Positions 6,242 to 32,881 of a stretch of DNA of 32,881 nt are shown in pieces. The DNA is from Paludibacteraceae bacterium (lineage in GTDB: Bacteria; Bacteroidota; Bacteroidia; Bacteroidales; Paludibacteraceae): positions 1 to 32,881 of the forward strand of contig JAFTZQ010000036.1 in the NCBI GenBank assembly GCA_017464475.1, in the 5' to 3' direction. The position numbers were made by a program, and so were the translations under genes. The notes beneath the pieces were generated by a model that had not been told where the DNA came from, searched no databases, and saw only the letters and a program-made list of their open reading frames with translations. Position 1 is the stretch's first letter. Each line of letters begins with the position of its first letter.

Positions 6242-7312
6242 ATGAGAATGAAAATTATCTTCATCATATTGGGTATCGTCGTGTTGTTTGTCGGAGCGGG
6301 TTTGGCAATATTGTCCCACCCGGCTTTCGGCCTATGGCGACATGTGTCGAAAGAGCGGATACAAGCGTCCCCGAACTACCGAAACGGGATGTTCCAAAAC
6401 CAAGAACCGACTCCACAGTTCACAGGCGATACCGCGAGCATGAGGCGTACATTTTGGCGTTTTTTGACGAACAAAGACACGCTGCGTGTACCGCAACAAC
6501 CGATACCTGCGATCAAGACCGACCTCAAGAACCTACCAACCGATAGCGATTGGTTGGTGTGGTTCGGGCATTCGTCGTACCTGTTCTGCTTGGACGGCAA
6601 GCGGTACTTGGTCGACCCGGTGCTAAAACCGGAATGGCCTACAACGCTGATGATGAAACCCTTTGCAGGCACCGACATCTACCGCCCTGACGACCTGCCT
6701 GACATCGATGTGCTTATCATCACGCACGAACATTGGGATCATATGGAGTACGCAACCCTGCGTGATATCCGTACGAAAGTCAAGTGTGTAGTTTGTCCGC
6801 TCGGCATCGCTGATTACCTGCGTTACTGGGGCTACGCAAACGAGCAAATCAAGGAAATGGATTGGTACGACCAATCACCAATTACAAATGACCAATTACA
6901 AATTACCTGCATACCAAGTCGCCACTTTTCCAATCGTCTCTTAGGCAAACGCAACCAGACTTTATGGGCATCGTTCATGGTCGAAGCCGGAGGGCGCAAG
7001 GTTTATATCGGAGGCGATGGAGGTTATGACAAACGCTTTAGGGAGATACACGAGCGTTTTGGTTCTATTGATCTTGCTTTTCTGGAAAACGGGCAGTACA
7101 ACGCTAACTGGAAATATATCCATACTACTCCGGAGGACCTCGAAAAAGTCATCCTGGATTTGCAGGCCAAGCAGGTTTTTACCGTTCACCATGACAAGTA
7201 TTCCTTAGCTATGCACCCGTGGTACGAGCCGGATAGCGTAGCGCACAACCTTGCCGTTCGACATAACATCCACCTATTGGATGCTCCGATAGGGACTGTT
7301 GTGAGCTATTAG
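6242..7312 (+). CDS. MBL-fold metallo-hydrolase (UlaG / NAPE-PLD-like), membrane-anchored
   Basis: 356 aa. An N-terminal hydrophobic segment (about 3-25) is a signal anchor. VWFGHSSYLF opens the metallo-beta-lactamase fold and ITHEHWDHMEY carries HxHxDH. Later ligands lie in CIPSRHFS and YIGGDGGYD, with an HHD near the end. This pattern fits the Lactamase_B_2 group that includes UlaG and NAPE-PLD, hydrolysing phosphodiester or lactone bonds; the substrate is unknown. Residues about 212-223 (SPITNDQLQIT) are encoded by five heptamer repeats, placed between conserved motifs in a probable surface loop. Confidence 0.8.
   Translation: MRMKIIFIILGIVVLFVGAGLAILSHPAFGLWRHVSKERIQASPNYRNGMFQNQEPTPQFTGDTASMRRTFWRFLTNKDTLRVPQQPIPAIKTDLKNLPTDSDWLVWFGHSSYLFCLDGKRYLVDPVLKPEWPTTLMMKPFAGTDIYRPDDLPDIDVLIITHEHWDHMEYATLRDIRTKVKCVVCPLGIADYLRYWGYANEQIKEMDWYDQSPITNDQLQITCIPSRHFSNRLLGKRNQTLWASFMVEAGGRKVYIGGDGGYDKRFREIHERFGSIDLAFLENGQYNANWKYIHTTPEDLEKVILDLQAKQVFTVHHDKYSLAMHPWYEPDSVAHNLAVRHNIHLLDAPIGTVVSY
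6873..6907 (+). repeat. Heptamer repeat in MBL gene, five units
   Basis: Five consecutive 7-bp units: aatcacc, aattaca, aatgacc, aattaca, aattacc. The same heptamer family occurs in the DUF1295 gene (31091-31125) and twice, in the gene's sense direction, in the pseudouridine synthase. Confidence 0.85.
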
Positions 7313-7375
7313 AAGCACCTGCAAGAACCCAATCAAAGATAAAATCGCAGAGTTAACAAAATAAGAAGAATAAAA

Positions 7376-8188
7376 ATGGAAGCACAGAAAGAACTAAATC
7401 AATATACCCACCGTTATTCGCTCACGGCGGCGGATATGGACACGCGTTACCGGATGACGCCGAACGCCGTCCTGCTCTATTATCAGGATTGCTGGGCACG
7501 CTATATGGCGTGCCTGCATCTGGCTGCTTTTGATGTGGTCAAGCAGAACCGCATCTGGGTCATTACGGAGTTCAACGCGTGGTTTGAAGAGCAGACAGCC
7601 CTGTGGTCGGATGACATTGATGTGACCGTTTGGAACAGTGAAGTGAGCGCGTTGCGGCTCTATGCCGAATTCCGCGTGCGTCGAGCAGATGGAGTTGAAG
7701 TGGCACACGGATATGGTTGTTGGACGCTCCTCGACACGGAGGCACACCGCCTTGCGCCGATGATGCCTTTCCTACCGCAGATACCCGTACTGCCGGAAGT
7801 AACGTCCGAGACTCACAAGAAACGCCGTTTCCCGATGGAAGGCACTCCGCTCCAACAGATCGAGCACCGTGTCAACCCGATCAATTTGGATTTCAACGGA
7901 CATGTCAACAACCGCACGTACCTTAGTATCGCCATGCAGTCGGCGGACGAAGCGTTTATGGACGCGCACGCCATCCGTTGTTTGGCTATTCATTGGCTCA
8001 AAGAGACCTTCTTGGGCGACACGCTCACCTGCCGTTTGATCTTGTTGCCTAATGAGACCGATGAAGCCGTCTATCACTACCTCCACACGATTGCTCGTAA
8101 CGATGCCGAGACCGCCGCGCAGGTCTATTCCGAATGGATTCCGCGCTCCGAGCAGATTGATGTCTCGGTTCATGCACAAAGAAAATAA
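7376..8188 (+). CDS. Acyl-ACP thioesterase
   Basis: 270 aa, two hot-dog domains. The N-terminal half has RYSLTAADMDTRYRMTPNAV and an FNAWFEEQ segment; the second half has IEHRVNPINLDFNGHVNNRTYL, with the N-x-H-x-N motif typical of the family (PF01643). It releases free fatty acids from acyl-ACP in the cytosol. Bacteroidota carry such short bacterial versions. It ends 9 bp before the alcohol dehydrogenase gene. Confidence 0.9.
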   Translation: MEAQKELNQYTHRYSLTAADMDTRYRMTPNAVLLYYQDCWARYMACLHLAAFDVVKQNRIWVITEFNAWFEEQTALWSDDIDVTVWNSEVSALRLYAEFRVRRADGVEVAHGYGCWTLLDTEAHRLAPMMPFLPQIPVLPEVTSETHKKRRFPMEGTPLQQIEHRVNPINLDFNGHVNNRTYLSIAMQSADEAFMDAHAIRCLAIHWLKETFLGDTLTCRLILLPNETDEAVYHYLHTIARNDAETAAQVYSEWIPRSEQIDVSVHAQRK

Positions 8189-8197
8189 ATCAACATT

Positions 8198-9385
8198 ATG
8201 CAAAACTTTGATTATCAGACACCGACACGTCTTATTTTTGGTGAAGGCGTGGTAGAGAAACTGCAGAAAGTAATGAGCGGTTTCGGCAAGAAAATACTCC
8301 TGACTTACGGAGGAGGCAGTATAAAGAAAATACCGGCTTTCAGAGGTAAAGCAGGCAGTTTGTATGAGTATGTGCGGGAGACGCTGAAGGACTTTGAAGT
8401 GGTGGAACTGAGCGGGATTCAGCCTAATCCGAAATATGATCCTTCGGTATTGGAAGGTGTGCGGCTGTGCAAAGAGCATAAGGTAGATGTGATCCTTTCG
8501 GTCGGCGGCGGAAGTGTGCTGGATTGCTCGAAGGCGATTGCTGCGGGTGCTTGTTATGAGGGCGATCCTTGGGATCTCATTTCGTACAAAGTGAAAGCGC
8601 AAGCCGCACTGCCGATTGTGGATATTATCACGTTAGCGGCTACTGGAAGTGAGTATGACTGCGGTGGTGTGATTTCCCGCACGGAGACGAATGACAAGAT
8701 CGGTTATTTGGATCGGCACTTGTTCCCTGCCGTTTCGTTTCTGGACCCGACATATACGTTCTCGGTCAGCCGGAAACAGACGGCCGCCGGTATTGCGGAC
8801 GCGATGAACCACACTATGGAGCAGTATTTCGTGGAGGACGCGACGCTGCTGAATGACGGTTTTTGCGAGTCGATGTTGCGTAGCCTCATGGCGAACGGAC
8901 GCAAGTGTATTGAGAACCCGGAGGATTACAAGGCACGTGCGGAGATGATGTTGGCTTGTACATATGGTTGCAACGGTATTTTGGCGCTCGGAAACAGCGA
9001 GAGCGGATGGCCTTGCCACGGAATTGAGCACGCTTTGAGTGCGTATTACGATATCACGCACGGTGAGGGTTTGGCGATCATTACGCCGCGTTGGATGAAG
9101 CATATTCTGAACGAGCGCACTTTGCCGCGGTTTGTGAAATACGGCGTGAATGTGTTCGGTATTGACGCTTCGCTGGACGAGTGGATGATTGCGAACAAAG
9201 CTATCGAAGCAACGTACGCGTTCTTTGAGTCGATCGGTATTCCGATGCACTTGCGCGAAGTAGGAATTGACGACAGCCGCCTCGACGAAATGGCACATCA
9301 TATCGCTGTAAATGAGGGACTTGAGAACGCTTATGCGGCTCTGACCGAGAAGGACATCAAAGAGATTTTGGTGGCAAGTTTATAA
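8198..9385 (+). CDS. Iron-containing alcohol dehydrogenase (butanol dehydrogenase / YqhD-like)
   Basis: 395 aa, full length for the family. The N-terminal dinucleotide-binding part contains GFGKKILLTYGGGSIKK and LSVGGGSVLDCSKAIAAG, the NADP-binding glycine-rich segments. Metal ligands are visible as D in GIADAMNHTMEQYF and H residues in GWPCHGIEHALSAYYDITHGEGLAI. It reduces aldehydes to alcohols with NADPH. It sits between a thioesterase and an FMN reductase with short gaps (9 and 26 bp), so co-expression is likely. Confidence 0.9.
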   Translation: MQNFDYQTPTRLIFGEGVVEKLQKVMSGFGKKILLTYGGGSIKKIPAFRGKAGSLYEYVRETLKDFEVVELSGIQPNPKYDPSVLEGVRLCKEHKVDVILSVGGGSVLDCSKAIAAGACYEGDPWDLISYKVKAQAALPIVDIITLAATGSEYDCGGVISRTETNDKIGYLDRHLFPAVSFLDPTYTFSVSRKQTAAGIADAMNHTMEQYFVEDATLLNDGFCESMLRSLMANGRKCIENPEDYKARAEMMLACTYGCNGILALGNSESGWPCHGIEHALSAYYDITHGEGLAIITPRWMKHILNERTLPRFVKYGVNVFGIDASLDEWMIANKAIEATYAFFESIGIPMHLREVGIDDSRLDEMAHHIAVNEGLENAYAALTEKDIKEILVASL

Positions 9386-9411
9386 GAACAAAACATCACA
9401 CATCAAACATT

Positions 9412-9927: not shown

Positions 9928-9937
9928 GAAATCATTA

Positions 9938-9966
9938 AAATCTGCATCCCAAGTGCAGATTTTTTT
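9938..9966 (+). terminator. Rho-independent terminator
   Basis: A 9-bp perfect stem (9938-9946 with 9954-9962, aaatctgca/tgcagattt), 7-nt loop, then a T run. It closes the 3.9-9.9 kb operon. Confidence 0.9.
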
Positions 9967-9995
9967 GTATATTTCAAAAAAAAGTAGTACCTTTG
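9965..9995 (+). promoter_or_regulatory. Promoter of the zeta toxin module
   Basis: TTG at 9965-9967, inside the T-tract of the preceding terminator, then 20 nt and TACCTTTG at 9988-9995, followed by GCAGCC. Confidence 0.75.
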
Positions 9996-10025
9996 CAGCC
10001 AAAAGTTGCAAAGATGGTTTAAACT

Positions 10026-11066: not shown

Positions 11067-11093
11067 GGATAACAACAGTTATTCGCGTTTTTG
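11066..11093 (+). terminator. Terminator of the 6S-like RNA
   Basis: 8-bp stem 11066-11073/11078-11085 (one G-U), loop aaca, then cgttttt. It starts at the last paired base of the RNA rod. Confidence 0.8.
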
Positions 11094-11119
11094 TATAATT
11101 ACCTCAACAACTGTTTAAT

Positions 11120-12060: not shown

Positions 12061-12115
12061 AGTCTTACTTAACTCTTATTTAAGTCTTATATTAGTCTTA
12101 CTTGTGTCCTATGTG
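12061..12115. repeat. 11-bp tandem repeat, five units
   Basis: Units agtcttactta, actcttattta, agtcttatatt, agtcttacttg and tgtcctatgtg, each 11 bp. Divergence between units suggests an old array. Confidence 0.75.
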
Positions 12116-16702: not shown

Positions 16703-16738
16703 AAATGGTACATGGTAAATGAACAAATGGTAAATATC
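16703..16738 (+). repeat. Heptamer repeat across the ZIP start codon
   Basis: aaatggt, acatggt, aaatgaac, aaatggt, aaatatc: 7-bp units (one of 8) that contain both candidate ATG starts (16712 and 16727) of the transporter. Confidence 0.65.
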
Positions 16739-19401: not shown

Positions 19402-21237
19402 ATGTATAAATTAGGTATTGACATAGGCAGCACGACCATTAAGATGGCGTTGGTCGAAGTTGAAAGTCAAAAATCAAAAGATCGTCCTTCGGACTCAAAG
19501 CCGGTGGTTCTCGCAACCGACTACCGCCGCCATAACGCAGAACCGATGAAAGTCGGACAGGAGATGATTGAAGGGATCTTGAAAGCTGTCAGCGATCAGC
19601 ATTCAGCTATCAGCGTCGGCATCACCGGTTCAGTGGGAATGGGTTGTGCACAACGGCTTGGTATCGGTTTTCACCAAGAGGTGATTGCTGCAGCAGAAGT
19701 GGTGAAACAGCTCTATCCCGATGTACATTGTTTGGTGGACATCGGCGGCGAGGACAGTAAGATGATCTTCTTTGAAGAAGGTTGTGTGCCGGAGATGCGC
19801 ATGAACGGCAACTGCGCAGGAGGAACAGGTGCGTTTATCGACCAGACAGCGACGTTGCTGGGCGTGGAGACAAGCGAGTTGAATGCGCTGGCAGCCAAAG
19901 CCGAACATATCTATCCGATTGCGTCCCGTTGCGGCGTGTTCAGCAAGACCGACATCCAGAACCTTATTTCCCGTTCAGTAAGCAAAGAGGACATTGCCGC
20001 CTCGATGCTTCATGCCGTTTCGATGCAAGTGGTGAGCGCACTTGCGCGCGGAACAGAAGTGCATCCGAAGATTTTCCTTTGCGGCGGTCCGTTCGCTTAT
20101 ATCCCCAAACTGCGCAAGCACTTGTTGCAGGCACTTGAGATGACGGAGGAAGATTGCATTGTGCCCGAATACACGCAGTTTATTCCCGCTATCGGAACTG
20201 CCTTGCTGGCAAAAGGAGAACCGCTCACATACGCGCAGATGCGTTCCCTATTTTCTAATGACCATTGTGGTGTTGCTCAACTCTCCGGCACACTTCCCCC
20301 GCTCTTTGCCGACGAAGCCGATTATCGGAAATGGTTATCAGAGAAAGAGAAGAAGTATGGAAATCTAACAGGTGAAGCCGGTCTAACAGCAACGCGGTCT
20401 AACAGTCCGCAGGACGGTCTAACAGGCATAGCCGGTCCTTTCTATCTCGGTGTCGATTCCGGTAGCACGACCACCAAATTGGTCCTGATTAACGAAAAAG
20501 GCGAACTGGTTTTCACGGACTACAGTTACAATAACGGCAACTCGTTGCAGGCTTTTCATAGTGCGTTGCAACGAATGCGTGACACGCTCGGGCAGGACAT
20601 CGAGATAGCCGGCAGTTGTTCGACAGGTTACGGTGAGCAGTTACTTAAGACCGCTTTTCGCTTGGATTACGGCATTGTGGAGACCATGGCACATTTCATG
20701 GCGGCGAAGCACCTGCAACCGAACGTCTCTTTTGTGCTCGACATAGGCGGTCAGGACATGAAAGCCATCTTCGTGGAGAACGGTTCTATCCAAAGGATAG
20801 AGATCAACGAAGCCTGCTCGTCCGGTTGTGGCAGTTTTATCATGACTTTTGCGCGGCAGTTGGGCTATGAAGTGAGCGATTTTGCACACATGGCGACGCT
20901 GGCGCAACACCCGTACGACCTCGGTACACGCTGCACGGTTTTCATGAACAGCAAGGTCAAACAAGCGATGCGCGAAGGAGCACAAGTGGACGACATCGCC
21001 GCCGGATTCAGTTATTCGGTCATCAAAAACTGCCTGTACAAAGTGCTCAAACTGCAATCGTTTGACCAATTAGGCGAACATATCATGGTTCAAGGCGGCA
21101 CGTTCCGCAACCATTCTGTCGTTCGCGCTTTGGAGATCCTCACCGGCAAGGAAGTCGGCTTCGGTCCGATTCCTGAACTAATGGGTGCGTACGGATGTGC
21201 CTTGTATGCTCAACGTCAAAGAATCGTCCGTATATGA
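19402..21237 (+). CDS. Acyl-CoA dehydratase activase, tandem BadF/BadG ATPase domains
   Basis: 611 aa with two ASKHA ATPase domains: GIDIGSTTIK (5-14) with IGGEDSKMI and NGNCAGGTGAFID (C138), and GVDSGSTTTK (about 351-360) with IGGQDMKAIF and NEACSSGCGSFI (about 469-480). In this family a Cys from each subunit ligates a shared [4Fe-4S] cluster, and ATP hydrolysis drives an electron into a 2-hydroxyacyl-CoA dehydratase-type partner. In most bacteria the two domains continue into a dehydratase-like half in one protein of about 1400 aa; here that half is a separate gene. Linkers at 19458-19478, 19585-19612 and 20362-20425 are made of short tandem repeats. Confidence 0.9.
   Translation: MYKLGIDIGSTTIKMALVEVESQKSKDRPSDSKPVVLATDYRRHNAEPMKVGQEMIEGILKAVSDQHSAISVGITGSVGMGCAQRLGIGFHQEVIAAAEVVKQLYPDVHCLVDIGGEDSKMIFFEEGCVPEMRMNGNCAGGTGAFIDQTATLLGVETSELNALAAKAEHIYPIASRCGVFSKTDIQNLISRSVSKEDIAASMLHAVSMQVVSALARGTEVHPKIFLCGGPFAYIPKLRKHLLQALEMTEEDCIVPEYTQFIPAIGTALLAKGEPLTYAQMRSLFSNDHCGVAQLSGTLPPLFADEADYRKWLSEKEKKYGNLTGEAGLTATRSNSPQDGLTGIAGPFYLGVDSGSTTTKLVLINEKGELVFTDYSYNNGNSLQAFHSALQRMRDTLGQDIEIAGSCSTGYGEQLLKTAFRLDYGIVETMAHFMAAKHLQPNVSFVLDIGGQDMKAIFVENGSIQRIEINEACSSGCGSFIMTFARQLGYEVSDFAHMATLAQHPYDLGTRCTVFMNSKVKQAMREGAQVDDIAAGFSYSVIKNCLYKVLKLQSFDQLGEHIMVQGGTFRNHSVVRALEILTGKEVGFGPIPELMGAYGCALYAQRQRIVRI
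19458..19478 (+). repeat. Heptamer repeat in activase gene, three units
   Basis: agttgaa, agtcaaa, aatcaaa, encoding VESQKSK. The same peptide and heptamer occur in the hydrolase gene at 24784-24811. Confidence 0.7.
19585..19612 (+). repeat. Heptamer repeat in activase gene, four units
   Basis: gctgtca, gcgatca, gcattca, gctatca, followed by gcgtcgg. It encodes AVSDQHSAIS just before the conserved GITGS motif. Confidence 0.7.
20362..20425 (+). repeat. Interspersed decamer repeat in interdomain linker
   Basis: ggtctaacag occurs at 20380, 20396 and 20416, with a variant (aatctaacag) at 20362. Spacings are 18, 16 and 20 bp. It encodes the linker between the two ATPase domains. Confidence 0.7.
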
Positions 21238-21245
21238 TAAGCAGT

Positions 21246-21311
21246 ATAACCTACTAATAACCTACTAATAACCTACTAATAACCTACTAATTACATACTA
21301 ATCATATACTA
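21246..21311 (+). repeat. 11-bp tandem repeat, six units, splitting the activase
   Basis: Four perfect copies of ataacctacta followed by two degenerate ones, 66 bp in all. The array fills most of the 78-nt gap between the two activase genes and ends 4 nt before the ATG at 21316. It contains in-frame stop codons. Confidence 0.9.
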
Positions 21312-21315
21312 TACT

Positions 21316-23784
21316 ATGCATTTAGATGAGATATTGAAATCGGATCGATTTGAGGAGAAAGAGGAAGTGTGTCCGGGATGTCAGAACCACTGCCAGGTGC
21401 GCGTCTATTCGTTTGCGAACGGGCGTCAGTACGTGTCGGGCAATAACTGCGAGCGCGTCTATTCGAATGAAGGCGATGGCGCGCATAAAGGCGTCAACAT
21501 GTTCGAGGAGAAATACCACTTACTTTTCAATCGTACATCGTCAATCGTCAAATCGTCAATCACCATCGGTCTTCCACGGGGACTTGGAATTTATGAGAAC
21601 TATCCCTTCTGGCATACACTTTTCGAGTGTTGCGGAATGCGTGTGCGGTTGAGCGGCATGAGTACGAACCGGCTTTTTGACAAAGGCGTGCGGACCATCG
21701 TGGCGGACAATATCTGTTACCCCGCCAAACTGATGCACGGGCATGTGATGGACCTCATCGAGAAGCAAGTAGACCGCATTTTCTATCCGTGGGTGGTGTT
21801 CGAACGCAAGGAGGATGAGCAATCGAAGAACAGTTTCAACTGCCCGGTCGTCAGCGGTTATTCGGATGTAATCAAGAGTGCCATCAACCCCGAGAAAAAC
21901 TACGGCATTCCTTTGGACGCGCCGACCATCTCGTTCAAGGACGAGGAACTGTTGCGGGCGTCTTTAGTCGAATACCTCGCTACGCTCAATATCAGCGAAT
22001 CCACCGCACAAGCAGCTATCACTCAGGCGATTAGGGCGCAGCAGAACTATCTCGATGCATTGGAAAAACGCAATATGCAAGTCTTCAACGAGGCGCGCGC
22101 GGCAGGTCGGATGGTTATTCTCTTGGCAGCACGGCCTTACCACATCGACCCGCTTATTCAGCATAAGATAGCCGACGCGATAGCCGCGATGGGTATTGAT
22201 GTGATCACGGAGAATGTGGCTGCGCACGAGGGTCAAGGCGTCTATGACGAACTGAACGCGATGGCACAATGGGCGTACCCGAACCGCATTTTCAAGGCTG
22301 CCCATTGGGTCGGGAACAGCCCGTACAACAATCTGCACATGGTCGAGTTAACCTCCTTCGGTTGCGGTCCGGACGCGTTCATCTTGGACGAAGTGCGGGC
22401 AATCCTGTCCCGTTATGGCAAGAACCTCACCGTCCTCAAGATTGACGATGTGAACAATATCGGTTCGCTCCGTCTCCGCGTCCGTTCCCTCGTCGAAAGT
22501 GTCAATGCGTCCTCTCGAAATGTCGAAATATCGAAAGATCGAGATCTCGAAAACAAAGCGCCCTTCACCACCAAGCCCTTCGAGCACTCCGACCGCGAAC
22601 GCGTCATCTTAACCCCTTATTTCGCAGAGGGTTACAACGAGTTCCTGCCCACTATTTTTAGTTTGGCGGGTTACCGCATCGAGTCGCTACCGATGGCGAC
22701 GCAAGAGGACGCCGAAGAAGGGCTGCACGTGGCGAACAACGACATCTGCTATCCGGCTACTATCGTGGTGGGTTCGATCATGCGGGCTTTGAAATCCGGC
22801 AAGTACGACCTCTCAAAGACCGCCGTGGCGATTACGCAGACAGGCGGGCAATGCCGTGCGTCCAACTACTACGCGCTCATCAAAAATGCTCTCGTGGCGG
22901 CAGGTATGAGCCAAGTGCCGGTGATAGCTGTAGCTATCGGTCCAAGTCTCAAAAACAGCCAGCCTGGCTTTGAAATCAACTGGTTACATCTCATCCGTCC
23001 GACGCTCGAAGCGCTTTATTTCGCCGACGCGCTGGCCAAACTCTATTATCCTGCTGCTCCGCGCGAACGTATCCCCGGCGTGGCGCGCAAGCTCTACGAC
23101 CACTACCTCAACGCCGCGCAACCGCTCTTGGCGAAGCGCAACTACCGGGCAATCCGTCAACTCATGCGGGATGCCGCGGGTGCGTTCAAGGACATCACGG
23201 ACACCACCAGACAAGTGCCGGTAGTCGGTGTGGTCGGCGAGATATACGTCAAGTACAACTCGTTCTCTAACCACGGCGTCGTCCGCTGGCTCATGGAGCA
23301 CGGCGTGGAAGTTGTGCCGCCGGCGATCACGGGGTTCTTCTCCACCTCTATTCCGAATGCGTTCATCAACCGCGAGCAGCATATCCGCAAGGATGGTCTG
23401 AGCCCCTGGCAGGCAAAACTCGTCAACCGCCTTTTGCTCCATTATGCGCATATCTATGACCGTCTCTGCGGCGACTTCCCGTTCTACCGTCCTTTCACGG
23501 ATATCATGGACATCTGGCATAAGAGCCGCCGCGTCATCAACTCCGCCGCAGACTTCGGCGAGGGTTGGTTCCTGCCCGGCGAGATATGCGACTTGGCGGA
23601 TCATGGCATCCACAAAGTGGTCTCGCTGCAACCTTTCGGCTGCATAGCGAACCATATCATCAGCAAAGGTATCGAGCGCCGTTACAAAGATCTCTACCCG
23701 CATCTGTCTTTGCTTTTCCTCGACTTCGATGCAGGCACATCTGACGCCAATATCACCAACCGCCTGCATTTTTTGCTGCAATAA
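21316..23784 (+). CDS. Dehydratase-like half of the acyl-CoA dehydratase activase (DUF2229 + HgdB-like)
   Basis: 822 aa. An N-terminal cysteine module (VCPGCQNHCQVRV with C19, C22, C26, then NNCERVY with C45) is followed by a DUF2229-type region (IGLPRGLGIYENYPFWHTLFECCG and ADNICYPAKLMHGHV). The second half is 2-hydroxyglutaryl-CoA dehydratase D-like (NDICYPATIVVGSIMRAL, TQTGGQCRASNYY, SLQPFGCIANHI). It normally continues from the ATPase domains in one chain; the frame here is the same as the upstream gene, with stops and an 11-bp repeat array between. It probably forms a complex with that protein. The reaction is unknown. Short repeats at 21530-21565 and 22513-22552 encode linkers. Confidence 0.88.
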   Translation: MHLDEILKSDRFEEKEEVCPGCQNHCQVRVYSFANGRQYVSGNNCERVYSNEGDGAHKGVNMFEEKYHLLFNRTSSIVKSSITIGLPRGLGIYENYPFWHTLFECCGMRVRLSGMSTNRLFDKGVRTIVADNICYPAKLMHGHVMDLIEKQVDRIFYPWVVFERKEDEQSKNSFNCPVVSGYSDVIKSAINPEKNYGIPLDAPTISFKDEELLRASLVEYLATLNISESTAQAAITQAIRAQQNYLDALEKRNMQVFNEARAAGRMVILLAARPYHIDPLIQHKIADAIAAMGIDVITENVAAHEGQGVYDELNAMAQWAYPNRIFKAAHWVGNSPYNNLHMVELTSFGCGPDAFILDEVRAILSRYGKNLTVLKIDDVNNIGSLRLRVRSLVESVNASSRNVEISKDRDLENKAPFTTKPFEHSDRERVILTPYFAEGYNEFLPTIFSLAGYRIESLPMATQEDAEEGLHVANNDICYPATIVVGSIMRALKSGKYDLSKTAVAITQTGGQCRASNYYALIKNALVAAGMSQVPVIAVAIGPSLKNSQPGFEINWLHLIRPTLEALYFADALAKLYYPAAPRERIPGVARKLYDHYLNAAQPLLAKRNYRAIRQLMRDAAGAFKDITDTTRQVPVVGVVGEIYVKYNSFSNHGVVRWLMEHGVEVVPPAITGFFSTSIPNAFINREQHIRKDGLSPWQAKLVNRLLLHYAHIYDRLCGDFPFYRPFTDIMDIWHKSRRVINSAADFGEGWFLPGEICDLADHGIHKVVSLQPFGCIANHIISKGIERRYKDLYPHLSLLFLDFDAGTSDANITNRLHFLLQ
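21530..21565 (+). repeat. Heptamer repeat in dehydratase-like gene
   Basis: atcgtac, atcgtca, atcgtca, (a) atcgtca, atcacca: five 7-bp units with one extra base. It encodes NRTSSIVKSSIT just before the conserved IGLPRGLG. Confidence 0.75.
22513..22552 (+). repeat. Octamer repeat in dehydratase-like gene, five units
   Basis: tctcgaaa, tgtcgaaa, tatcgaaa, gatcgaga, tctcgaaa. It encodes SRNVEISKDRDLENK, a hydrophilic linker between the two conserved halves. Confidence 0.85.
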
Positions 23785-23842: not shown

Positions 23843-24478
23843 ATGACGACAAATGACAAAATGGTAAATGATTCGATGGAACTGCGGATTCGCGAGGTGG
23901 CGCAACAACTCTTTTTTGAGCAGGGCTATGCGTCCACATCGACCACGCAGATAGCCAAAGAGGTCGGCTGCACGCAGGCACTCGTACATTATTATTACCG
24001 CACGAAAGAGAACCTCTTCCGGCAGATTTTCTTGGAGCAAGTCTTGGCGGCTCTGAATGTCATCGGGCGCTCTTTGGCAAACGAAGAATCGTTTGACCGC
24101 TTCATCGAGCAAGCTATCTCTATGTATTTTGACGCGCTGTCGAGCAATCCGCGTTTGCCGTTCTTTGTGTTGGAAGAGTTAGTCAACAACCCCGAGCGCC
24201 GCAAGTACATGCGGGAGAAATTTGTCAAGAATCCCACTTATGCGATGCTCTACATGCAGTTTGACGCACGTCTCAAGCAGGAGCAGCAAGCCGGGCATAT
24301 TACCAAAATCGATCCCTTCGATCTGATGATCACTATTGCTTCCCTGACAGTCTTTACCTTCGTTTCGCTGCCGATGTTCCAAGACCTGCTTTCGCAGACC
24401 GACGACCAAGTGCGAGACTACATCGCCCACCGCAAATCCGAGATCATCCGCATGGTCAAAAAGATCCTTAAACCATAG
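23843..24478 (+). CDS. TetR/AcrR family transcriptional regulator
   Basis: 211 aa. N-terminal helix-turn-helix: LRIREVAQQLFFEQGYASTSTTQIAKEVGCTQALVHYYYRTKENLF is the classic TetR signature. The C-terminal ligand domain is unclassified. It has its own promoter, so it may regulate the activase genes upstream or the hydrolase downstream. The first residues (MTTNDKMVNDS) are encoded by heptamer-like repeats (23851-23871); an ATG at 23876 (MELRIREV) is a possible alternative start. Confidence 0.85.
   Translation: MTTNDKMVNDSMELRIREVAQQLFFEQGYASTSTTQIAKEVGCTQALVHYYYRTKENLFRQIFLEQVLAALNVIGRSLANEESFDRFIEQAISMYFDALSSNPRLPFFVLEELVNNPERRKYMREKFVKNPTYAMLYMQFDARLKQEQQAGHITKIDPFDLMITIASLTVFTFVSLPMFQDLLSQTDDQVRDYIAHRKSEIIRMVKKILKP
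23851..23871 (+). repeat. Heptamer-like repeat at TetR start
   Basis: aaatgac, aaaatggt, aaatga: units of the same aaatg-type heptamer seen at the ZIP start (16703-16738). Confidence 0.5.
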
Positions 24479-24586: not shown

Positions 24587-25714
24587 ATGAAAAAGTTTTT
24601 AACCCTTATGCTCGCGGTAATTACTTTTGCTGCTTGCACAAATACAAATGAGAAAATGAGTAAATGCGAAAATGACACATGGGACAAAGTTTTCCCGCTT
24701 AGTGAGAAAGTAAACCACAAAAAGGTGAGTTTCCAAAACCAATACGGCTTCACTTTGGTGGGCGATCTTTACACGCCGAAGACAGTCGAAAGTCAAAAGT
24801 CGAAAGTCGAAAGCAAATACGCCGCTATCGCGGTGTCCGGTCCTTTCGGCGCAACGAAAGAGCAGAGTTCGGGTCTGTATGCGATGAAGATGGCGGAACG
24901 CGGGTTTGTTACGCTGGCTTTTGATCCATCTTTCACAGGCGAGAGTTCGGGTGAACCGCGTCGTACAGCTTCGCCGGATATCAATACCGAGGACTTTATG
25001 GCAGCGGTGGATTACCTTTCTAAACTGCCTGAGGTGGACGCAAACCGCATCGGTATTATTGGTATATGCGGATGGGGCGGCATTGCACTCAATGCGGCTG
25101 CGGCTGATACGCGTATCAAGGCGACGGTGGCTTCGACGATGTACGATATGACGCGTGTATCGGGCAACGATTATTTCGATTCCGCTGACACCGAAGAGGC
25201 GCGTCACGAAGCGCGTGTGGCACTCGCCGCACAACGTCTTGCAGACGCTGCTGCTATGGCAGGAGGCGTGATAGACCCACTGCCGGACGATGTACCGCAG
25301 TTCGTCAAGGACTACCACGATTACTACAAGACTCCGCGCGGCTACCATGCCCGCAGCGGTAACTCGAATGACGGTTGGCGTGTCATCGGCACGCAGGCTT
25401 ATGCCAACAGCCGTTTCCTGTACTACATCAACGAGATCCGTTCGGCGGTTCTGATCATGCACGGCGAAAACGCCCACAGCCGTTATTTCGGCGAAGCGGC
25501 ATACCATTACATGGTGGACGGCAAGGCGGAAGGCTATAAGACCGTGGTGGCTCCGAATCCTTGTCCCGAGAACAAAGAGTTGCTCATCATCCCCGATGCT
25601 TCTCATTGCGACCTCTATGACGGCGGTTATACCGAGCCGGCAGGCCAAGGCGAACCCAAGAACCTCATTCCGTGGGACAAGTTGGCAGAGTTCTTTGAGA
25701 AGAATCTGAAGTAA
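24587..25714 (+). CDS. Alpha/beta hydrolase lipoprotein with Cys nucleophile elbow
   Basis: 375 aa from ATG 24587; an upstream in-frame start lies across the promoter. Lipoprotein signal MKKFLTLMLAVITFAAC (Cys17). The alpha/beta hydrolase core has AIAVSGPFGATKEQ and FDPSFTGESSGEPR, and the nucleophile elbow reads GICGWGG, i.e. G-x-C-x-G with Cys instead of Ser, as in dienelactone hydrolase. The catalytic His is in IPDASHCDLYDGG and an Asp/Glu likely in MHGENAHSRYF. Substrate unknown; it acts in the periplasm. Two repeat tracts follow the lipobox (24646-24677 octamers and 24784-24811 heptamers). Confidence 0.85.
   Translation: MKKFLTLMLAVITFAACTNTNEKMSKCENDTWDKVFPLSEKVNHKKVSFQNQYGFTLVGDLYTPKTVESQKSKVESKYAAIAVSGPFGATKEQSSGLYAMKMAERGFVTLAFDPSFTGESSGEPRRTASPDINTEDFMAAVDYLSKLPEVDANRIGIIGICGWGGIALNAAAADTRIKATVASTMYDMTRVSGNDYFDSADTEEARHEARVALAAQRLADAAAMAGGVIDPLPDDVPQFVKDYHDYYKTPRGYHARSGNSNDGWRVIGTQAYANSRFLYYINEIRSAVLIMHGENAHSRYFGEAAYHYMVDGKAEGYKTVVAPNPCPENKELLIIPDASHCDLYDGGYTEPAGQGEPKNLIPWDKLAEFFEKNLK
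24646..24677 (+). repeat. Octamer repeat after the lipobox, four units
   Basis: aaatgaga, aaatgagt, aaatgcga, aaatgaca. It encodes the hydrophilic tether (NEKMSKCENDT) after the lipid-anchoring Cys. Confidence 0.8.
24784..24811 (+). repeat. Heptamer repeat in hydrolase gene, four units
   Basis: agtcgaa, agtcaaa, agtcgaa, agtcgaa. It encodes VESQKSKVES, inserted before the first core strand. Confidence 0.85.
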
Positions 25715-27496: not shown

Positions 27497-27511
27497 CCGC
27501 CGTTTTTAAAA

Positions 27512-29758
27512 ATGCGAGTAAAAGTACTGCTTATATTATTCCTTATCTGCACAGCTCTCTATGGAACAGAAGCGGTATCTGACACTGTTCTGTTGTCGGA
27601 TATAGAAGTGTCGGTGTCGCGGGTAGCGATGCCTGTTTCCAAGCAGCAGTTACAAGTGAGCGTGCTGGACGGAAGACTTATTGAGCAGGCACAAGTGAAT
27701 ACACCCAAAGAAGTAAGCAACCTCGTGCCGAACGTCTATATGCCTGATTATGGCTCAGCGATGACCAGCAGTATTTATATCCGAGGCATGGGAAGCCGAA
27801 TCAACGAACCGGTAATGGGAATGGTGGTGGATGGTATCCCGCTGTTGGACAAGAATATGTATGACCATGTGCTGCAAGATGTGAAGCGAATAGAGTTGTT
27901 ACGTGGGCCGCAAGGCAGTCTTTACGGACGTAACTCACCGGCAGGCATCATGGAGATACGCACTATTCAACCTTTGGATTTAAGTACACGCACTATACGT
28001 GCCCAAGCAACTTACGGTACAGCTAATACCATACGTGCACAGGCATCGTACTATGAACCGGTGAACGATAAGTTTGGTGTCGGTATTTCCGGTCGGTATG
28101 CCCGAACAGACGGATTCTATACCAACATGTTTGACAATAACAAAATTGATTTCGGCCAGCAGGCAGGTGGACGAATTGTGTTGGATGGCAGGCCTTCAGA
28201 TGAATGGCGCGTGACGGGAAATATCTTTGCCGATTGGGTACGACAAGGTGCATTCCCTTATGCGAATGTATCAACGGGGCAGATTGCGTACAATGCACAG
28301 GGTAGTTATGAACGCTTGGCGTTTTTGCCTTCCATCCGTGCGGAGTACCAATATGCCGGCTATCGGTTACAGATGGCTGCAAGTTACCAGTTTATGCATG
28401 ACGATATGCGAATGGATAATGATTATACTCCTGCAGATATCTTCACGCTGCAACAAACCCAACGACAACATAATGCCACCTTGGATGCTCTGCTGCGTGC
28501 TCCCAAGCCTTGCTCGTGGTATGAATGGACGGTGGGACTAAGCAGTTTTGCGAAAGCCAACACCATGCATGCCCCGGTAGTGTTTATGCGTGAAGGTATA
28601 GACGAGTTGATCTTGGGCAATGCTAATCGGGGCATCCAGACGGTTTTTCCGGACGATTCCATTGAGATATCCAACACTACGCTACCTATCCCCAGCTCTT
28701 TTGAACTCTTCAACGCCGGAGCAGCGGTGTACCATCAGAGCCATTTTAAGTTCGGCAACTGGCACCTCAACGCAGGCGTGCGCTTTGATTATGAACATGT
28801 GCGCATGACGTATTTGAGTACTGCCGATGTGACGTACCGTTTCACGATGTTGATGACGGATTACAAAAAGGTGCATACTGAGATAAAAGGTATGCAAACT
28901 GACCATTTTATCCAAGTGCTACCGAAACTGGCAATATCGTATGAAGGCACCTGGGGAACGATCTATGGCTACGCTGCAAAAGGCTATAAAGCAGGCGGAT
29001 ACAATCCGCAGATCTTCAGTACCATTACCCAAAATCAAGTCATGAATGATTTAGCGGCAGATATGGGGGTGCACCTGTCTATAGCTGATCCGCGTTTCTC
29101 CGATGTAGCCATCACACACTATAAACCAGAGACCGATTGGACCTTCGAGATTGGCGCTCATCTGATACCCACAGAGGGTCTGAGGATAGATGTTGATGCA
29201 TTTCATATCCAGTGTTTTGACCAGCAGGTGACCATTTTCCCGAACGGCAAGACAACCGGTCGTATGATGGCTAATGCCGCTCGTTCGAGAATGTGGGGTG
29301 CTGAGGCTGCGCTTCAATATCGCTGGAACAAGGGTGTATGGCAAGGTCTAATCGATGCTTCGTACGGCTTTACCGACGCACGCTTTATCACCTTCAACGA
29401 CGGTATGGGCGATTATTCGGGGAATGTCATTCCTTATGCGCCGCAACATACCGCCCATCTCCTGTGTGAAGTGGATTACCGAGTCGGGCATAAATGGCTG
29501 GAACGTATAGGAATCACCCTCAAAGGGGATGGAATAGGTCGTATTTACTGGAATGAGCAGAACGATGTTTGGCAACCGTTCTACGGATTGTTAGGTGCTA
29601 CGTTCAGCCTGGAATGGCAGTACGTTAAACTGCAACTATGGGGCAGAAACCTGACGGACACGAAATACGATGTATTCTATTTCCGATCGATGGGTAACGA
29701 TTTTCTGCAACGCGGCAAACCGCGAGAATTAGGAGTAACCGTATTATTTGAGATTTAA
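27512..29758 (+). CDS. TonB-dependent outer-membrane receptor
   Basis: 748 aa from ATG 27512; an in-frame TTG at 27494 lies within the -7 element. Signal peptide about 1-21. The plug domain has LSDIEVSVSRVAMPVSKQQ (TonB-box region), NLVPNVYMPDYG, SIYIRGMGSRINEPVMGMVVDGIPL and VKRIELLRGPQGSLYGRNSPAGIMEI. A 22-strand-type barrel ends in GRNLTDTKYDVFYFRSMG and PRELGVTVLFEI with the final aromatic strand. It lacks the carboxypeptidase-like domain of SusC proteins, so a siderophore, haem, cobalamin or metal-chelate receptor is more likely than a glycan one. It heads a unit with a lipoprotein and a membrane protein. Confidence 0.9.
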   Translation: MRVKVLLILFLICTALYGTEAVSDTVLLSDIEVSVSRVAMPVSKQQLQVSVLDGRLIEQAQVNTPKEVSNLVPNVYMPDYGSAMTSSIYIRGMGSRINEPVMGMVVDGIPLLDKNMYDHVLQDVKRIELLRGPQGSLYGRNSPAGIMEIRTIQPLDLSTRTIRAQATYGTANTIRAQASYYEPVNDKFGVGISGRYARTDGFYTNMFDNNKIDFGQQAGGRIVLDGRPSDEWRVTGNIFADWVRQGAFPYANVSTGQIAYNAQGSYERLAFLPSIRAEYQYAGYRLQMAASYQFMHDDMRMDNDYTPADIFTLQQTQRQHNATLDALLRAPKPCSWYEWTVGLSSFAKANTMHAPVVFMREGIDELILGNANRGIQTVFPDDSIEISNTTLPIPSSFELFNAGAAVYHQSHFKFGNWHLNAGVRFDYEHVRMTYLSTADVTYRFTMLMTDYKKVHTEIKGMQTDHFIQVLPKLAISYEGTWGTIYGYAAKGYKAGGYNPQIFSTITQNQVMNDLAADMGVHLSIADPRFSDVAITHYKPETDWTFEIGAHLIPTEGLRIDVDAFHIQCFDQQVTIFPNGKTTGRMMANAARSRMWGAEAALQYRWNKGVWQGLIDASYGFTDARFITFNDGMGDYSGNVIPYAPQHTAHLLCEVDYRVGHKWLERIGITLKGDGIGRIYWNEQNDVWQPFYGLLGATFSLEWQYVKLQLWGRNLTDTKYDVFYFRSMGNDFLQRGKPRELGVTVLFEI

Positions 29759-29785
29759 AATTTAAGCTTTAATATTTTTAAGATT

Positions 29786-30277
29786 ATGAAAAAATTATTC
29801 TATGTATTAGCAGTCGCTATGATAGTAACGGCATGCAATCAAAACGAACCGGAAGATCAGACCAAAGTTTCCTTTGCTAAGGCTACGTATTTTGAAGCCC
29901 TTGGAACCAACACCGTACCGAATGTGGAAGGCGAGAACAAAGATCAGCCTTTCAGTATGGACAGCGTGCGTGTAGAGGCAGTAATTATGACGGATACCAC
30001 ACTCGACATCAACCTCTATGGTATCAATTTCTCCTCTAAAATGCCGGTTACCATCGACATGGTTATCCCGGGTGCCAAGTACAGCCGCACCGCTGAGAAG
30101 ATCACTCTTTACGGTGAAGGCATCATCCCGACTATGGGTGGCAATCCGTTTGATCGTTATGTCATCAATGCTCTGGCAGGCTCCATCACAGCCGACTCAC
30201 TGGTCTTTACCAATAGTTATGGTCAATACGCCGGCTGTACCTACGCGGGTAAGATTACAAAAATGGAAGAGAAATAA
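29786..30277 (+). CDS. Calycin-like lipoprotein
   Basis: 163 aa. Lipobox IVTAC (Cys17 of MKKLFYVLAVAMIVTAC). The mature part is beta-rich, with VRVEAVIMTDTTLDINLYGINFSSKMPVTIDMVIPG, similar to the calycin-like domain (PF13944) of Bacteroidota lipoproteins. It lies 27 bp after the TonB receptor, so it may be its surface ligand-capture partner. The stop overlaps the next start (TAATG). Confidence 0.7.
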   Translation: MKKLFYVLAVAMIVTACNQNEPEDQTKVSFAKATYFEALGTNTVPNVEGENKDQPFSMDSVRVEAVIMTDTTLDINLYGINFSSKMPVTIDMVIPGAKYSRTAEKITLYGEGIIPTMGGNPFDRYVINALAGSITADSLVFTNSYGQYAGCTYAGKITKMEEK

Positions 30278-30570
30278 TGAACTTCGAAGGAATTCTTTTG
30301 GGCGCGGGTGCGTTCCTGTGCATCGGACTTTTTCATCCGCTGGTCATCAAAGCGGAGTACTATTTCGGCGTCAAGTCCTGGTGGGCGTTTCTCATCGTCG
30401 GTCTATTGGCGGCAGGCAGCTCGTTATTCGTAGAAAATACGTATATCTCCATCTTCTTGGGGATCTTTGCTTTCTCGTCCTTATGGGGAATCGGCGAGGT
30501 GTTTCATCAGCGTGAACGAGTCCGCAAAGGATGGTTTCCCATGAACCCCAAACGCAAAAACGAGTATTAA
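30277..30570 (+). CDS. DUF4491 membrane protein
   Basis: 97 aa, three hydrophobic segments (about 5-24, 33-50 and 56-72). The motifs MNFEGILLGAGAFLCIGLFHPLVIKAEYYFG and GWFPMNPKRK are characteristic of DUF4491 (PF14898). No function is known. Translationally coupled to the lipoprotein gene. Confidence 0.85.
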   Translation: MNFEGILLGAGAFLCIGLFHPLVIKAEYYFGVKSWWAFLIVGLLAAGSSLFVENTYISIFLGIFAFSSLWGIGEVFHQRERVRKGWFPMNPKRKNEY

Positions 30571-30594
30571 AAAAACAGCAAAACGTGCAATGAC

Positions 30595-31470
30595 ATGAAA
30601 CGAAATTATTCCAAATGGTGTAGTGTGGCGCTGATAGCCGCTATTTACGCACTCGCAGGCGTAGCAGGATGGCTGCTGTTTGAGTGGTTGGTCGCTAACC
30701 CCCTCATCCCTAACTCCCTCATCGCTCTCTTTTGCGCTGACGTGCTGGCAACAGTTATCGTATGGGCATTCGGCTTACTTTACGAGAACGTGTCGGTCTA
30801 TGATCCTTATTGGAGTGTCTTTCCGCCGGTCGCTTTTTTACTCTGGGCGTCTTATACCGACGTATGGTCGCTACCGGTCATTCTATTGCTTGTAGCCTCA
30901 TGGTATTGGGGCTGGCGACTCACGCGCAACTGGGCTATCACCTTCAAGGGTATCGGTCATGAGGACTGGCGTTACACCAAGTATCGCGACCGACATCCGC
31001 TGGTCTTTCATGCCATCAATCTCTTCGGTTTGAACATGATGCCGACCTTAGTGGTGTTCGCCGCTATGCTACCCGGACTAAAACTATTTGAATCACCATT
31101 TACCAATGACCAATCACCAATTAGCATAGTTTTGCTATGCTTCGGTTTCATCGTTTGCATTGCTTCAGCTACTATTCAACTCATCGCGGACAAACAGAGC
31201 CACGATTTCCGTGCCGCTCATCCGGGTAAAGTGTGTAACGTGGGGCTATGGAAGCACGGTCGACATCCAAATTATTTCGGTGAGATTCAGTTCTGGTGGG
31301 GCATATGGATCATGTACGCGTCTCTGAACGGCATTGATATGTATATCGGCGGTGCGATTGCTATGACGGCTCTCTTCCTCGGAATCAGCATTCCGCTGAT
31401 GGAGAAACGCCAACTGGCGAACAAACCCGACTATGCTGCATACCGCAAGCAAACAAGAATATTAATATGA
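30595..31470 (+). CDS. DUF1295 / steroid 5-alpha-reductase-like membrane protein
   Basis: 291 aa with about seven membrane segments. The C-terminal YRQDH-like part (QSHDFRAAHPGKVCNVGLWKHGRHPNYFGEIQFWWG) matches the DUF1295/ICMT-SRD5A fold, integral membrane reductases or methyltransferases. Two repeat tracts lie in loops: 15-mers at 30694-30723 (ANPLIPNSLI) and heptamers at 31091-31125 (SPFTNDQSPIS). The end overlaps msrA by four bases (ATGA). Confidence 0.8.
   Translation: MKRNYSKWCSVALIAAIYALAGVAGWLLFEWLVANPLIPNSLIALFCADVLATVIVWAFGLLYENVSVYDPYWSVFPPVAFLLWASYTDVWSLPVILLLVASWYWGWRLTRNWAITFKGIGHEDWRYTKYRDRHPLVFHAINLFGLNMMPTLVVFAAMLPGLKLFESPFTNDQSPISIVLLCFGFIVCIASATIQLIADKQSHDFRAAHPGKVCNVGLWKHGRHPNYFGEIQFWWGIWIMYASLNGIDMYIGGAIAMTALFLGISIPLMEKRQLANKPDYAAYRKQTRILI
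30694..30723 (+). repeat. 15-bp tandem duplication in DUF1295 gene
   Basis: gctaaccccctcatc and cctaactccctcatc, 13 of 15 matching; in frame (five residues each). Confidence 0.7.
31091..31125 (+). repeat. Heptamer repeat in DUF1295 gene, five units
   Basis: aatcacc, atttacc, aatgacc, aatcacc, aattagc. Same heptamer family and unit number as in the MBL gene at 6873-6907. Confidence 0.85.
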
Positions 31471-31982
31471 CGCTTAAACACATCTATTTGGCCGGAGGAT
31501 GCTTCTGGGGCACGGAGCATTTCTTCAAACAGATTGACGGAGTGGTTGAGACCGAAGTGGGTTTCGCCAACGGACAAACGGCAAACCCGACGTACGAACA
31601 GGTCTATACCGACACCACCGGCTATGCCGAGACCGTGCACGTAGTATATGACTCGGCCAAAGTGAGTCTGGCATTCCTCCTCCGTATGTTCTTCGTTGCT
31701 ATCGACCCGACGAGCCTGAATAAGCAAGGACATGACGAAGGGACTCGGTATCGCACGGGCATCTACTATACCGACGCTGCGGACCTACCGACCGTTGAGC
31801 AAGTCTATGCAGAGGAACAAAGCAAGTACACGCAACCGTTAGCGGTAGAGAAACTGCCTTTGCAGAATTTCTATCCCGCCGATGAATACCATCAGGACTA
31901 CTTGGACAAGCATCCTGACGGGTATTGCCACTTACCGAAAGCCTTGTTTGATTTTGCAAGACAAACAAAAGTTAATCAATAA
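31467..31982 (+). CDS. msrA: Peptide-methionine (S)-S-oxide reductase
   Basis: 171 aa. GGCFWGTEHFF contains the catalytic Cys12 (GCFWG motif). VGFANGQTANPTYEQVYTDTTGYAETVHVVYD and LQNFYPADEYHQDYLDKHP are characteristic MsrA segments. It repairs oxidised methionine using thioredoxin. No MsrB domain is fused. It is coupled to the DUF1295 gene and ends 10 bp before the convergent pseudouridine synthase. Confidence 0.95.
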   Translation: MTLKHIYLAGGCFWGTEHFFKQIDGVVETEVGFANGQTANPTYEQVYTDTTGYAETVHVVYDSAKVSLAFLLRMFFVAIDPTSLNKQGHDEGTRYRTGIYYTDAADLPTVEQVYAEEQSKYTQPLAVEKLPLQNFYPADEYHQDYLDKHPDGYCHLPKALFDFARQTKVNQ

Positions 31983-31992
31983 CCATCAAGAA

Positions 31993-32881
31993 TTAACGAG
32001 TTAAGGAAAACGAAGAAGGGATGCAGAAATGCATCTCTTTTTGTGTCACAGGATGGACGAAGAGGATCTCGGCAGCATGGAGACATAAGCGATTTGCCGA
32101 TGTGGAGCCATAGAGACGGTCGCCGAGGATGGGGGCATTGAGGCCGTCGGGATGGGCAGCATGGACACGGAGTTGGTGCGTGCGACCGGTGAGCGGGAAG
32201 AAATCGACGAATACTGTGCCATCGGGTCGAAGTTCGCGGATTTCACAGCGGGTGATAGCCGGTTTGCCATGTTCGACATTCACCATCTGACGAGGGCGAT
32301 CATAGGGATTCGGGAGGAGAGGAAGATTTATAATTTGTGATTGGTGATTTGTGATTTTTGATTTGGGATTTGGGCTGAGGATGGCTTCGTAGCGTTTGAA
32401 GACATCGCGGCGTTGAAAATAAGCTTGCAGGGTTTTGTAGATCTCGGGGGTCTTGGCAAGCACCAAGAGTCCACTGGTGTCTTGGTCGAGGCGATGCACG
32501 GGCTGAAGAGATGGGCGCTGAAGGAGTTCGACAACAGAGAGTTCATCGGTCTTACCGGGAACAGAAAGCAAGCCCGAGGGTTTATTGACTACCATCAACC
32601 ATTCATCCTCAAAGAGGATGTCAATGGATGCAGTAGGTGTTGCGAATCCCCTACTCGATTCTTCGCCCAGTATCCATTTTAAGATGGGTTTGCATCGCCC
32701 AGAACAGGGAGCGTAGAACGTACCTTCCTGTCGAACTTCGGTGCGCGAAGGTGCTCCTACCCAGAACTCTGCCAGAGCGATCGGCTTCATGCCATGCGAG
32801 AGAGCGTAGTGCAGTAATTTCGGGGCACAACATTCGCCTGCACCGGAAGGAGGATTGGTAATTGGTGATTGGTGATTGGTG
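31993..32881 (-). CDS. RluA-family pseudouridine synthase (5' end beyond window)
   Basis: The frame is open to the right edge, giving at least 295 residues; the first internal ATG (32790) is not the natural start, because the residues before it (GECCAPKLLHYALSHG) match the conserved region preceding it in longer Bacteroidota and proteobacterial RluA-type proteins (compare GECAAPKLLQYAY-HG). The catalytic motif PVHRLDQDTSGLLVLAKT carries the Asp. LTGRTHQLRVH and APILGDRLYG are further signatures. It converts uridine to pseudouridine in rRNA/tRNA. Two heptamer tracts lie within it: one replaces the short linker before DRPRQMV (KSKITNHQSQIIN), the other is at the window edge. Confidence 0.88.
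   Translation of the reverse strand, partial: TNHQSPITNPPSGAGECCAPKLLHYALSHGMKPIALAEFWVGAPSRTEVRQEGTFYAPCSGRCKPILKWILGEESSRGFATPTASIDILFEDEWLMVVNKPSGLLSVPGKTDELSVVELLQRPSLQPVHRLDQDTSGLLVLAKTPEIYKTLQAYFQRRDVFKRYEAILSPNPKSKITNHQSQIINLPLLPNPYDRPRQMVNVEHGKPAITRCEIRELRPDGTVFVDFFPLTGRTHQLRVHAAHPDGLNAPILGDRLYGSTSANRLCLHAAEILFVHPVTQKEMHFCIPSSFSLTR
32016..32043 (+). terminator. Terminator of the msrA operon, inside the convergent gene
   Basis: 10-bp stem 32016-32025/32030-32039 (one G-U), GAAA loop, then a T run. It overlaps the 3' end of the pseudouridine synthase gene. Confidence 0.8.
32332..32373 (-). repeat. Heptamer repeat in pseudouridine synthase, six units
   Basis: On the gene strand: ccaaatc, ccaaatc, aaaaatc, acaaatc, accaatc, acaaatt. 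Related to the repeats at 6873 and 31091. Confidence 0.85.
32853..32881 (-). repeat. Heptamer repeat at the window edge, at least four units
   Basis: On the plus strand gattggt, aattggt, gattggt, gattggt, g; continues past the edge. It is in frame in the pseudouridine synthase (SPITNPP). Confidence 0.85.

Follow-up and report, generated by a model that had tools for sequence, protein, structure and literature searches.

Tandem direct repeats with a seven-base unit are known from Beggiatoaceae, from Cyanobacteria (STRR, TAACTGA) and from five Bacteroidetes including Paludibacter propionicigenes, and no mechanism is evident from the part of the published account that treats them (MacGregor 2015, PMC4679880). 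Rickettsia palindromic elements, which are in-frame inserts, are given in the relevant section of a review as 105–146 bp long with 12-bp terminal inverted repeats (PMC2229807). We have analyzed arrays of 7- and 8-bp units, and a 43-nt composite cassette that joins such heptamers to a small hairpin, in a 32,881-nucleotide stretch of DNA from a Paludibacteraceae bacterium (hereafter the window; contig C21 of a 1.9-Mb genome that comprises 36 contigs and is 71% complete). These repeats work like STRR heptamers and Rickettsia palindromic elements, yet fail a defining feature of each. While STRR repeats were originally defined in Cyanobacteria, the 45 orthologous loci named in this study come mostly from Bacteroidales / Paludibacteraceae genomes, many of them from rumen and other ruminant gut samples, in agreement with the original prediction, made from the letters of the window alone, of an STRR-like heptamer class in Bacteroidota.

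The genome scan proposed with that prediction returned 61 arrays of period 7, 11 of period 8 and 20 of period 11 in a sample of 387,789 bases (the window and 20 stretches of its genome), as against none of these three periods in three shuffles. Like STRR and TAACTGA repeats, as far as PMC4679880 characterizes these, the heptamers are dispersed over many places in the genome, are patchy among phyla, are open in one orientation but filled with stops in the other, and lie partly in open reading frames (ORFs). The STRR and TAACTGA repeats, however, are described there as having mostly one unit and as being mostly intergenic near start codons, with sets inside genes mainly at protein ends, whereas here there are many units, units are exchanged at enzyme loops, hairpin cassettes occur, and of the 61 period-7 arrays 25 fall entirely within called genes, 25 cross a gene edge and 11 are in intergenic DNA (placements that come from our own ORF model, with rough gene calls). 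In 21 of the 25 arrays inside genes, the open strand is the sense strand and the stops are on the opposite one; two more are open on both strands.

Rickettsia palindromic elements, in the review's description (PMC2229807), are likewise short and dispersed, in frame in conserved protein genes as well as between genes, and tolerated by enzymes. The cassette resembles them in lying in frame in unrelated conserved genes, but it has only 43 nt and an internal hairpin in place of terminal inverted repeats of about 12 bp, and most of the modules here are tandem arrays. For three further systems the comparison rests on those sections of the sources that characterize the repeats: (i) the G-rich heptamers of Xanthomonas and Nostoc are also many-copy tandem repeats whose length varies between close relatives, but are of the G-quadruplex type and over-represented in intergenic regions (PMC4692102); (ii) tandem repeats of Bacillus also combine a fixed unit length with a variable, species-specific sequence, but have units of 20–21 or 52 nt and lie largely outside protein genes (PMC8161180); and (iii) PARCELs are also palindromic coding repeats shuffled within genomes, but form 25-residue amphipathic domains in ORFs of unknown function (PMC2996958). 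Searches of the open-licence literature, judged from their result lists, turned up no description of many-unit exchange at fixed enzyme loops or of a 43-nt frame-fixed cassette.

The density of heptamer arrays is lineage-bound: they are frequent in the genus (27 period-7 arrays in 281,517 bases from 20 members) and rare in the sampled relatives of the order (3 in 246,730 bases of 20 such genomes), a few withheld stretches being counted in both totals. A pattern of three AATTCTC units (at most two mismatches) gave 156 matches in the window's genome and none for its reversed control, and three AATCACC units (at most three mismatches) gave 27 matches in the whole genome versus two for the control, overlapping registers of a single array being counted separately in both cases. 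Over the phylum, the distribution of AATTCTC arrays is patchy; 38 of 395 genomes matched, and at least ten matches were found in ten genomes besides the window's, which belong to three families and include one, G386, with three control matches.

The central result is that the same loop carries different modules in sister species. In the gene for a UlaG-like metallo-beta-lactamase-fold protein (6242–7312; this and the other host genes of the window were assigned by Pfam), the loop between EMDWY and IT-PSRH holds an AATCACC-type 7-bp array on the forward strand just before ITCIPSRH (6873–6907), detected both by TRF and by a strict tandem test (match +1, mismatch −2, score at least 12). The 22 orthologs have other units, a hairpin array or no array at this place: AATCTTC in L165 and L167 (85–86% identical), AGTCGAA in L170, AATTATC in L171, AATTCTC in L173, AATTAAA in L178, AAATGTC in L179, a hairpin array in L172, and none in L168 and L169 (81–83% identical). 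Modules are likewise swapped among orthologs in the loops of a DUF1295 protein (30595–31470), where the window has a TRF-detected AATCACC-type array (31091–31125, forward strand), and of an RluA-type pseudouridine synthase, where it has an array of AATCACA type in the sense strand (32332–32373, reverse strand; TRF and strict test). Three loops of a BadF-type ATPase (19402–21237) and two loops of the neighboring DUF2229 CoA-activase-family protein (HGD; 21316–23784) differ between orthologs of 90–96% identity. At HGD site 1 the window carries an AATCGTC-type array with 7/8-bp units (21530–21565, forward strand), recognized by ortholog comparison, and at site 2 an 8-bp array of the TCGAAATA type (22513–22552, forward strand; strict test and orthologs), which is common to most close relatives and replaced in L029, L030 and L033.

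Taken over eight sites, with 4 to 9 units per site, a 7/8-bp array is present in 89 of 237 ortholog rows versus 16 of 684 control windows of 17 codons from the same proteins, where the window itself accounts for up to eight of the 237 rows and rows within one site share descent. Exact duplicates were removed for BadF and HGD only, orthologs under the identity and coverage cut-offs were excluded, and scoring relied on single-letter shuffles, which are random, so that individual row labels vary slightly between runs. The alignments for an alpha/beta hydrolase (8 rows), a TetR regulator (32 rows) and a ZIP transporter (3 rows) stand outside this score.

BadF allowed a comparison with homologs that lack the tracts. 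On the forward strand, its site A in the window is occupied by the 43-nt cassette (19458–19500), which consists of three AGTCGAA-type heptamers (19458–19478) and a GTCC-TTC-GGAC hairpin and encodes the peptide VESQKSKDRPSDSK; site B by an AGCTATC-type array (19585–19612); and site C, between the two ATPase halves, by an array of small hairpins linked by GGTCTAACAG-like words (about 20353–20430), which had not been listed before. The corresponding linkers have 34, 29 and 53 residues in the window, and 22, 27–28 and 38–39 residues in five distant homologs; among 26 closer BadF sequences (window included), 23, 18 and 21, respectively, are longer than all five. Judged from these alignments, the distant homologs represent the empty state, from which the tracts are absent, and the array at site B overwrites the loop with a net gain of one or two residues, rather than being a simple insertion. 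The proposed comparison with homologs thus turned out as foreseen: where it was made, the distant homologs lack the residues of the tracts and sister species differ at the same loop. In-frame insertion within genes, as originally envisaged, describes the tracts in part, since a number of them lie in genes and in frame but the one at 19585 overwrites its loop, those at 16703 and 23851 are at gene starts and that at 32853 is at a gene edge.

A predicted model of the window's BadF (mean pLDDT 80.1, pTM 0.60) places site A in the turn between strands 12–19 and 35–43, site B in the loop that follows helix 48–60, and site C in the link from helix 305–319 to strand 347–353; the two longest stretches with a pLDDT below 50 are residues 23–30 and 324–342. 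All three sites are thus predicted to be loops or an inter-domain link. Also seen in frame in the loops discussed here was a longer palindromic element (CCCTCTCC...GGAGAGGG type), namely in HGD loop 1 (L043, L051), BadF loop C (L058, L064) and the DUF1295 loop (L207).

The cassette is not confined to BadF. Its 26-base core (at most three mismatches) has 27 matches in 15 of the 61 genus genomes, the reversed control having none. Both ends could be set for 24 of the 27, of which 21 measure 43 nt and the others 29, 36 and 50 nt. Across the genus, it occupies 14 sites in 12 unrelated genes, encoding LigA, PepT (the 29-nt copy), RibBA (between RibB and RibA), a Dpp5-like peptidase, an EFR1 ferredoxin, a DHH phosphoesterase, a DsbD-like protein, an NRPS-like protein, a PotA-like ATPase, an indolepyruvate ferredoxin oxidoreductase alpha-like protein, an alpha-amylase-family enzyme and BadF (three places); names in '-like' reflect that several NCBIfam scores fall under the curated cut-off. 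The cassette row of L242 duplicates the site of L232, which has a second copy. Carriage by phages was considered and rejected, as a search of viral contigs with a single pattern, the 24-nt cassette core, gave no exact match.

Although the cassette is free of stops in each of its three sense frames, one and the same frame is used at all 14 sites. This frame was found in 22 of 24 copies within ORFs of at least 200 residues, the exceptions being L224 and L247 (without Pfam match); the counts use the longest open frame, and L249 merely touches the end of an ORF. Such uniformity of frame suggests that selection filters the peptide itself. A second module, AGTCCGCAGGACGGTC (SPQDG), keeps to one frame in 13 of 13 long-ORF contexts, several of which are orthologs of one BadF site. 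At L224 (G029:C2), the BadF-HGD locus has apparently decayed, with just 42 HGD residues matched and the cassette off the usual frame of the longest ORF.

With a probability of roughly 55%, we consider the tracts to be lineage-wide dispersed short repeats that are copied in trans, filtered by selection, and act as near-neutral linkers. The population would comprise 7- and 8-bp arrays drawn from a connected set of units, together with the composite cassettes. Copies taken from other places in the genome, or from related bacteria, would expand or overwrite existing loops. Gene conversion or template switching where short homologies exist is a more likely route for this than cut-and-paste transposition, and plain arrays would move as the cassette does. 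Within genes, selection would retain mainly those copies that sit in a loop, keep the reading frame and have an open sense strand, which would account for the positions at which copies persist, and the outcome would be near-neutral hydrophilic linkers that change faster than the surrounding protein.

Several points weigh against this reading. No copying event has been caught, all of it being deduced from comparison. The window's genome has a single copy of the cassette core and no genome has more than four, a modest spread within genomes, so that descent or between-species exchange, for which such low numbers leave room, could carry part of it. The eight sites were picked because they have repeats in the window; at least one stop-free orientation exists for 27 of the 29 period-7 units, but letter-shuffled units reach a mean of 21.7 and a maximum of 27 as well; and in two of the 25 arrays inside genes the sense unit contains stops, the gene calls being rough. 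Moreover, GGTC-flanked hairpins are near control level in the sample of the window's genome, and the label 'two or more GGTC or GACC' lacks specificity (37 of 237 rows versus 62 of 684 controls), although no conclusion rests on it.

Enrichment of GGTC-flanked hairpins was also considered as a general rule and rejected, the sample giving 298 of 2,807 (0.106) as compared with 0.096–0.103 for three other tails. Over all loci analyzed, which are largely chosen orthologs, GNA or GNNA loops before GGTC number 199 of 13,091, against 47 of 10,317, 96 of 13,652 and 102 of 17,429.

A more specific proposal, which we offer tentatively and would not ourselves bet on, is that of a mobile linker system free of transposases: a resident library of short modules, made up of heptamer arrays that are read independently of phase and of frame-fixed hairpin cassettes, would be copied in and out of housekeeping-enzyme loops, sister species keeping the enzyme while the linkers are interchangeable. 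A plain heptamer array encodes the identical seven-residue cycle whatever the phase, and a 7-bp period may be favored in genes because such an insert is indifferent to reading phase. To us the repeats look like interchangeable protein linkers moved by copying between places in a gut bacterial family. They amount to a natural experiment in loop replacement, in which dozens of genomes have the same enzymes with many different linkers at constant positions. They also make the origin and spread of bacterial heptamer repeats testable, since orthologous sites can be compared and the cassette has a non-repetitive tag to follow. Differences in protein length in such genomes may, as a caution, stem from repeats rather than from function.

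Among the alternatives, local birth of every array survives best, though we regard it as unlikely. Polymerase slippage, through an effect of the polymerase footprint, would duplicate a resident 7-mer, the resulting arrays would decay by point mutation in tolerant loops, and the shared units would reflect slippage bias and coding constraint. Many bacteria do contain heptameric repeats in excess, and the polymerase footprint has been put forward as their cause (PMC4692102). The presence of TCA or TGA in 18 of the 29 units, where 8.0 are expected, could be such a sequence bias. However, the 61 period-7 arrays draw on just 29 units, whereas drawing 7-mers at random from that DNA yields 58.7 (200 draws, minimum 54), and single-base steps join 23 of the 29 into one network (mean 5.4 and maximum 14 in 200 letter shuffles). 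The cassette, furthermore, couples heptamers with a hairpin that is not tandem; slippage cannot produce such a part in 12 genes, so that copying is needed at least for the hairpin. Of the earlier suggestion of a mobile or slippage-driven class, the mobile half is supported by the cassette in 12 unrelated genes; slippage alone fails on the unit count and on the shared hairpin. Local birth is also disfavored by the presence of MutS in all 26 near-complete genus genomes, although 7-nt loops may escape MutS anyway. Loss of mismatch repair was rejected as a cause in its own right, as MutS_I is found in 57 of the 61 genus genomes and the four without it, the window's genome included, are 54–84% complete.

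Transposition is doubtful as well. A transposase might carry the cassette along as a MITE- or REP-like passenger, and perhaps the arrays too; this would suit the discrete length of 43 nt and the constant ends that the cassette shows in unrelated genes, its internal hairpin, whose stem has changed on both sides together in L246 and L250 (GTGC-TTC-GCAC), and the Y1 (RAYT/IS200-type) transposases found in 22 of the 61 genus genomes (18 above cut-off). Yet none of the 24 copies with both ends set shows a target-site duplication of 3–9 nt, and the first and last 12 nt of the cassette do not form inverted repeats (about 3 of 12 positions of the consensus ends pair, as judged by eye), its sole stem being the internal GTCC-TTC-GGAC. 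Some transposases leave no target-site duplication. Y1, the only family searched for, was not found in the window's genome or in 19 of the 26 near-complete relatives, and was rejected as a universal driver. Together with the overwriting at BadF site B, the missing target duplications and the patchy Y1 transposases favor replication- or recombination-based copying over transposition.

Old insertions might instead have been reshuffled between species by homologous recombination, the differences at a site being exchanged alleles. Two main alleles of BadF site A are indeed scattered over close relatives, and at the BadF-HGD junction the type of spacer tracks the first HGD codons in most rows; but we hold this to be improbable as a full account, as it provides no source for 4 to 9 units per site or for one cassette in 12 genes. 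Phase variation, in which the gain or loss of one unit would toggle a gene off or on, finds no support: a single slip of a 7- or 8-bp unit would shift the frame, as neither length is a multiple of three, but most of the host proteins are metabolic or housekeeping enzymes, no internal stop occurs in the listed full-length orthologs of HGD, the UlaG-like protein and the DUF1295 protein, and the rows WIN, L195 and L196 share one linker length. RluA matches in some genomes list one stop.

The spacer between BadF and HGD (window 21238–21315; orthologs L021–L071) is itself swapped among close relatives, being an 11-bp array, a short spacer with a GGAGG ribosome site, or an array of GTTAAA type. In the window it holds an 11-bp array (ATAACCTACTA; 21246–21311, forward strand), seen by TRF and in the ortholog comparison. 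The period-11 arrays are a separate class, as all 20 are intergenic and no called gene contains one; 17 are in L004–L020 and three in the window, where those at 131–173 and 12063–12100, like that in the spacer, are additions to the earlier list. Two assemblies each contain two versions of the locus (L023 and L052; L028 and L050), perhaps from co-binned strains, and L023 and L052 differ at BadF site B.

All 12 tracts listed originally are present in the window as written, with AATCACC-type units in four places (6873, 31091, 32332 and 32853) and AGTCGAA-type units in two (19458 and 24784). TRF (minimum score 30) finds ten of them, missing 19458–19478 and 23851–23871. The strict test is passed by four 7-bp tracts (6870–6906, 24784–24813, 32326–32374 and 32854–32881) and two 8-bp tracts (22515–22542 and 24646–24674), while the means over 40 dinucleotide shuffles were 0.02 and 0.0, respectively. 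The remaining six are degenerate, some combining 7- and 8-bp steps; those at 19458, 19585, 21530 and 31091 are backed by clearer arrays at the equivalent place in orthologs. The other two overlap start codons: a degenerate AAATGGT-type array across that of the ZIP gene (16703–16738, forward strand; TRF score 38) and an AAATGAC-type one at the start of the TetR gene (23851–23871, forward strand), recognized in the sequence and variable in orthologs.

The alpha/beta hydrolase gene carries two forward-strand arrays, both found by TRF and the strict test: one of 8-bp units close to the N-terminus (24646–24677), directly behind what looks by eye like a lipoprotein signal, and one of AGTCGAA units (24784–24811). 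At the upstream edge of the RluA-type gene, an AATCACC-type array (32853–32881, reverse strand; TRF and strict test) is truncated by the contig end; similar arrays occur in L138, L140 and L149, and most other RluA orthologs have none. Rfam (gathering thresholds) and ARAGORN gave no match within the window. A 9-bp array of the AATGATGCA type (NDA peptide), absent from the earlier list, lies at 4613–4637 in a gene that is presumably HAD-like, and 9-bp units like these also occur in the RluA loop of two relatives, L145 and L149. Finally, a perfect 23-bp tandem duplication is located at 3710–3755, upstream of the gene at 3813.

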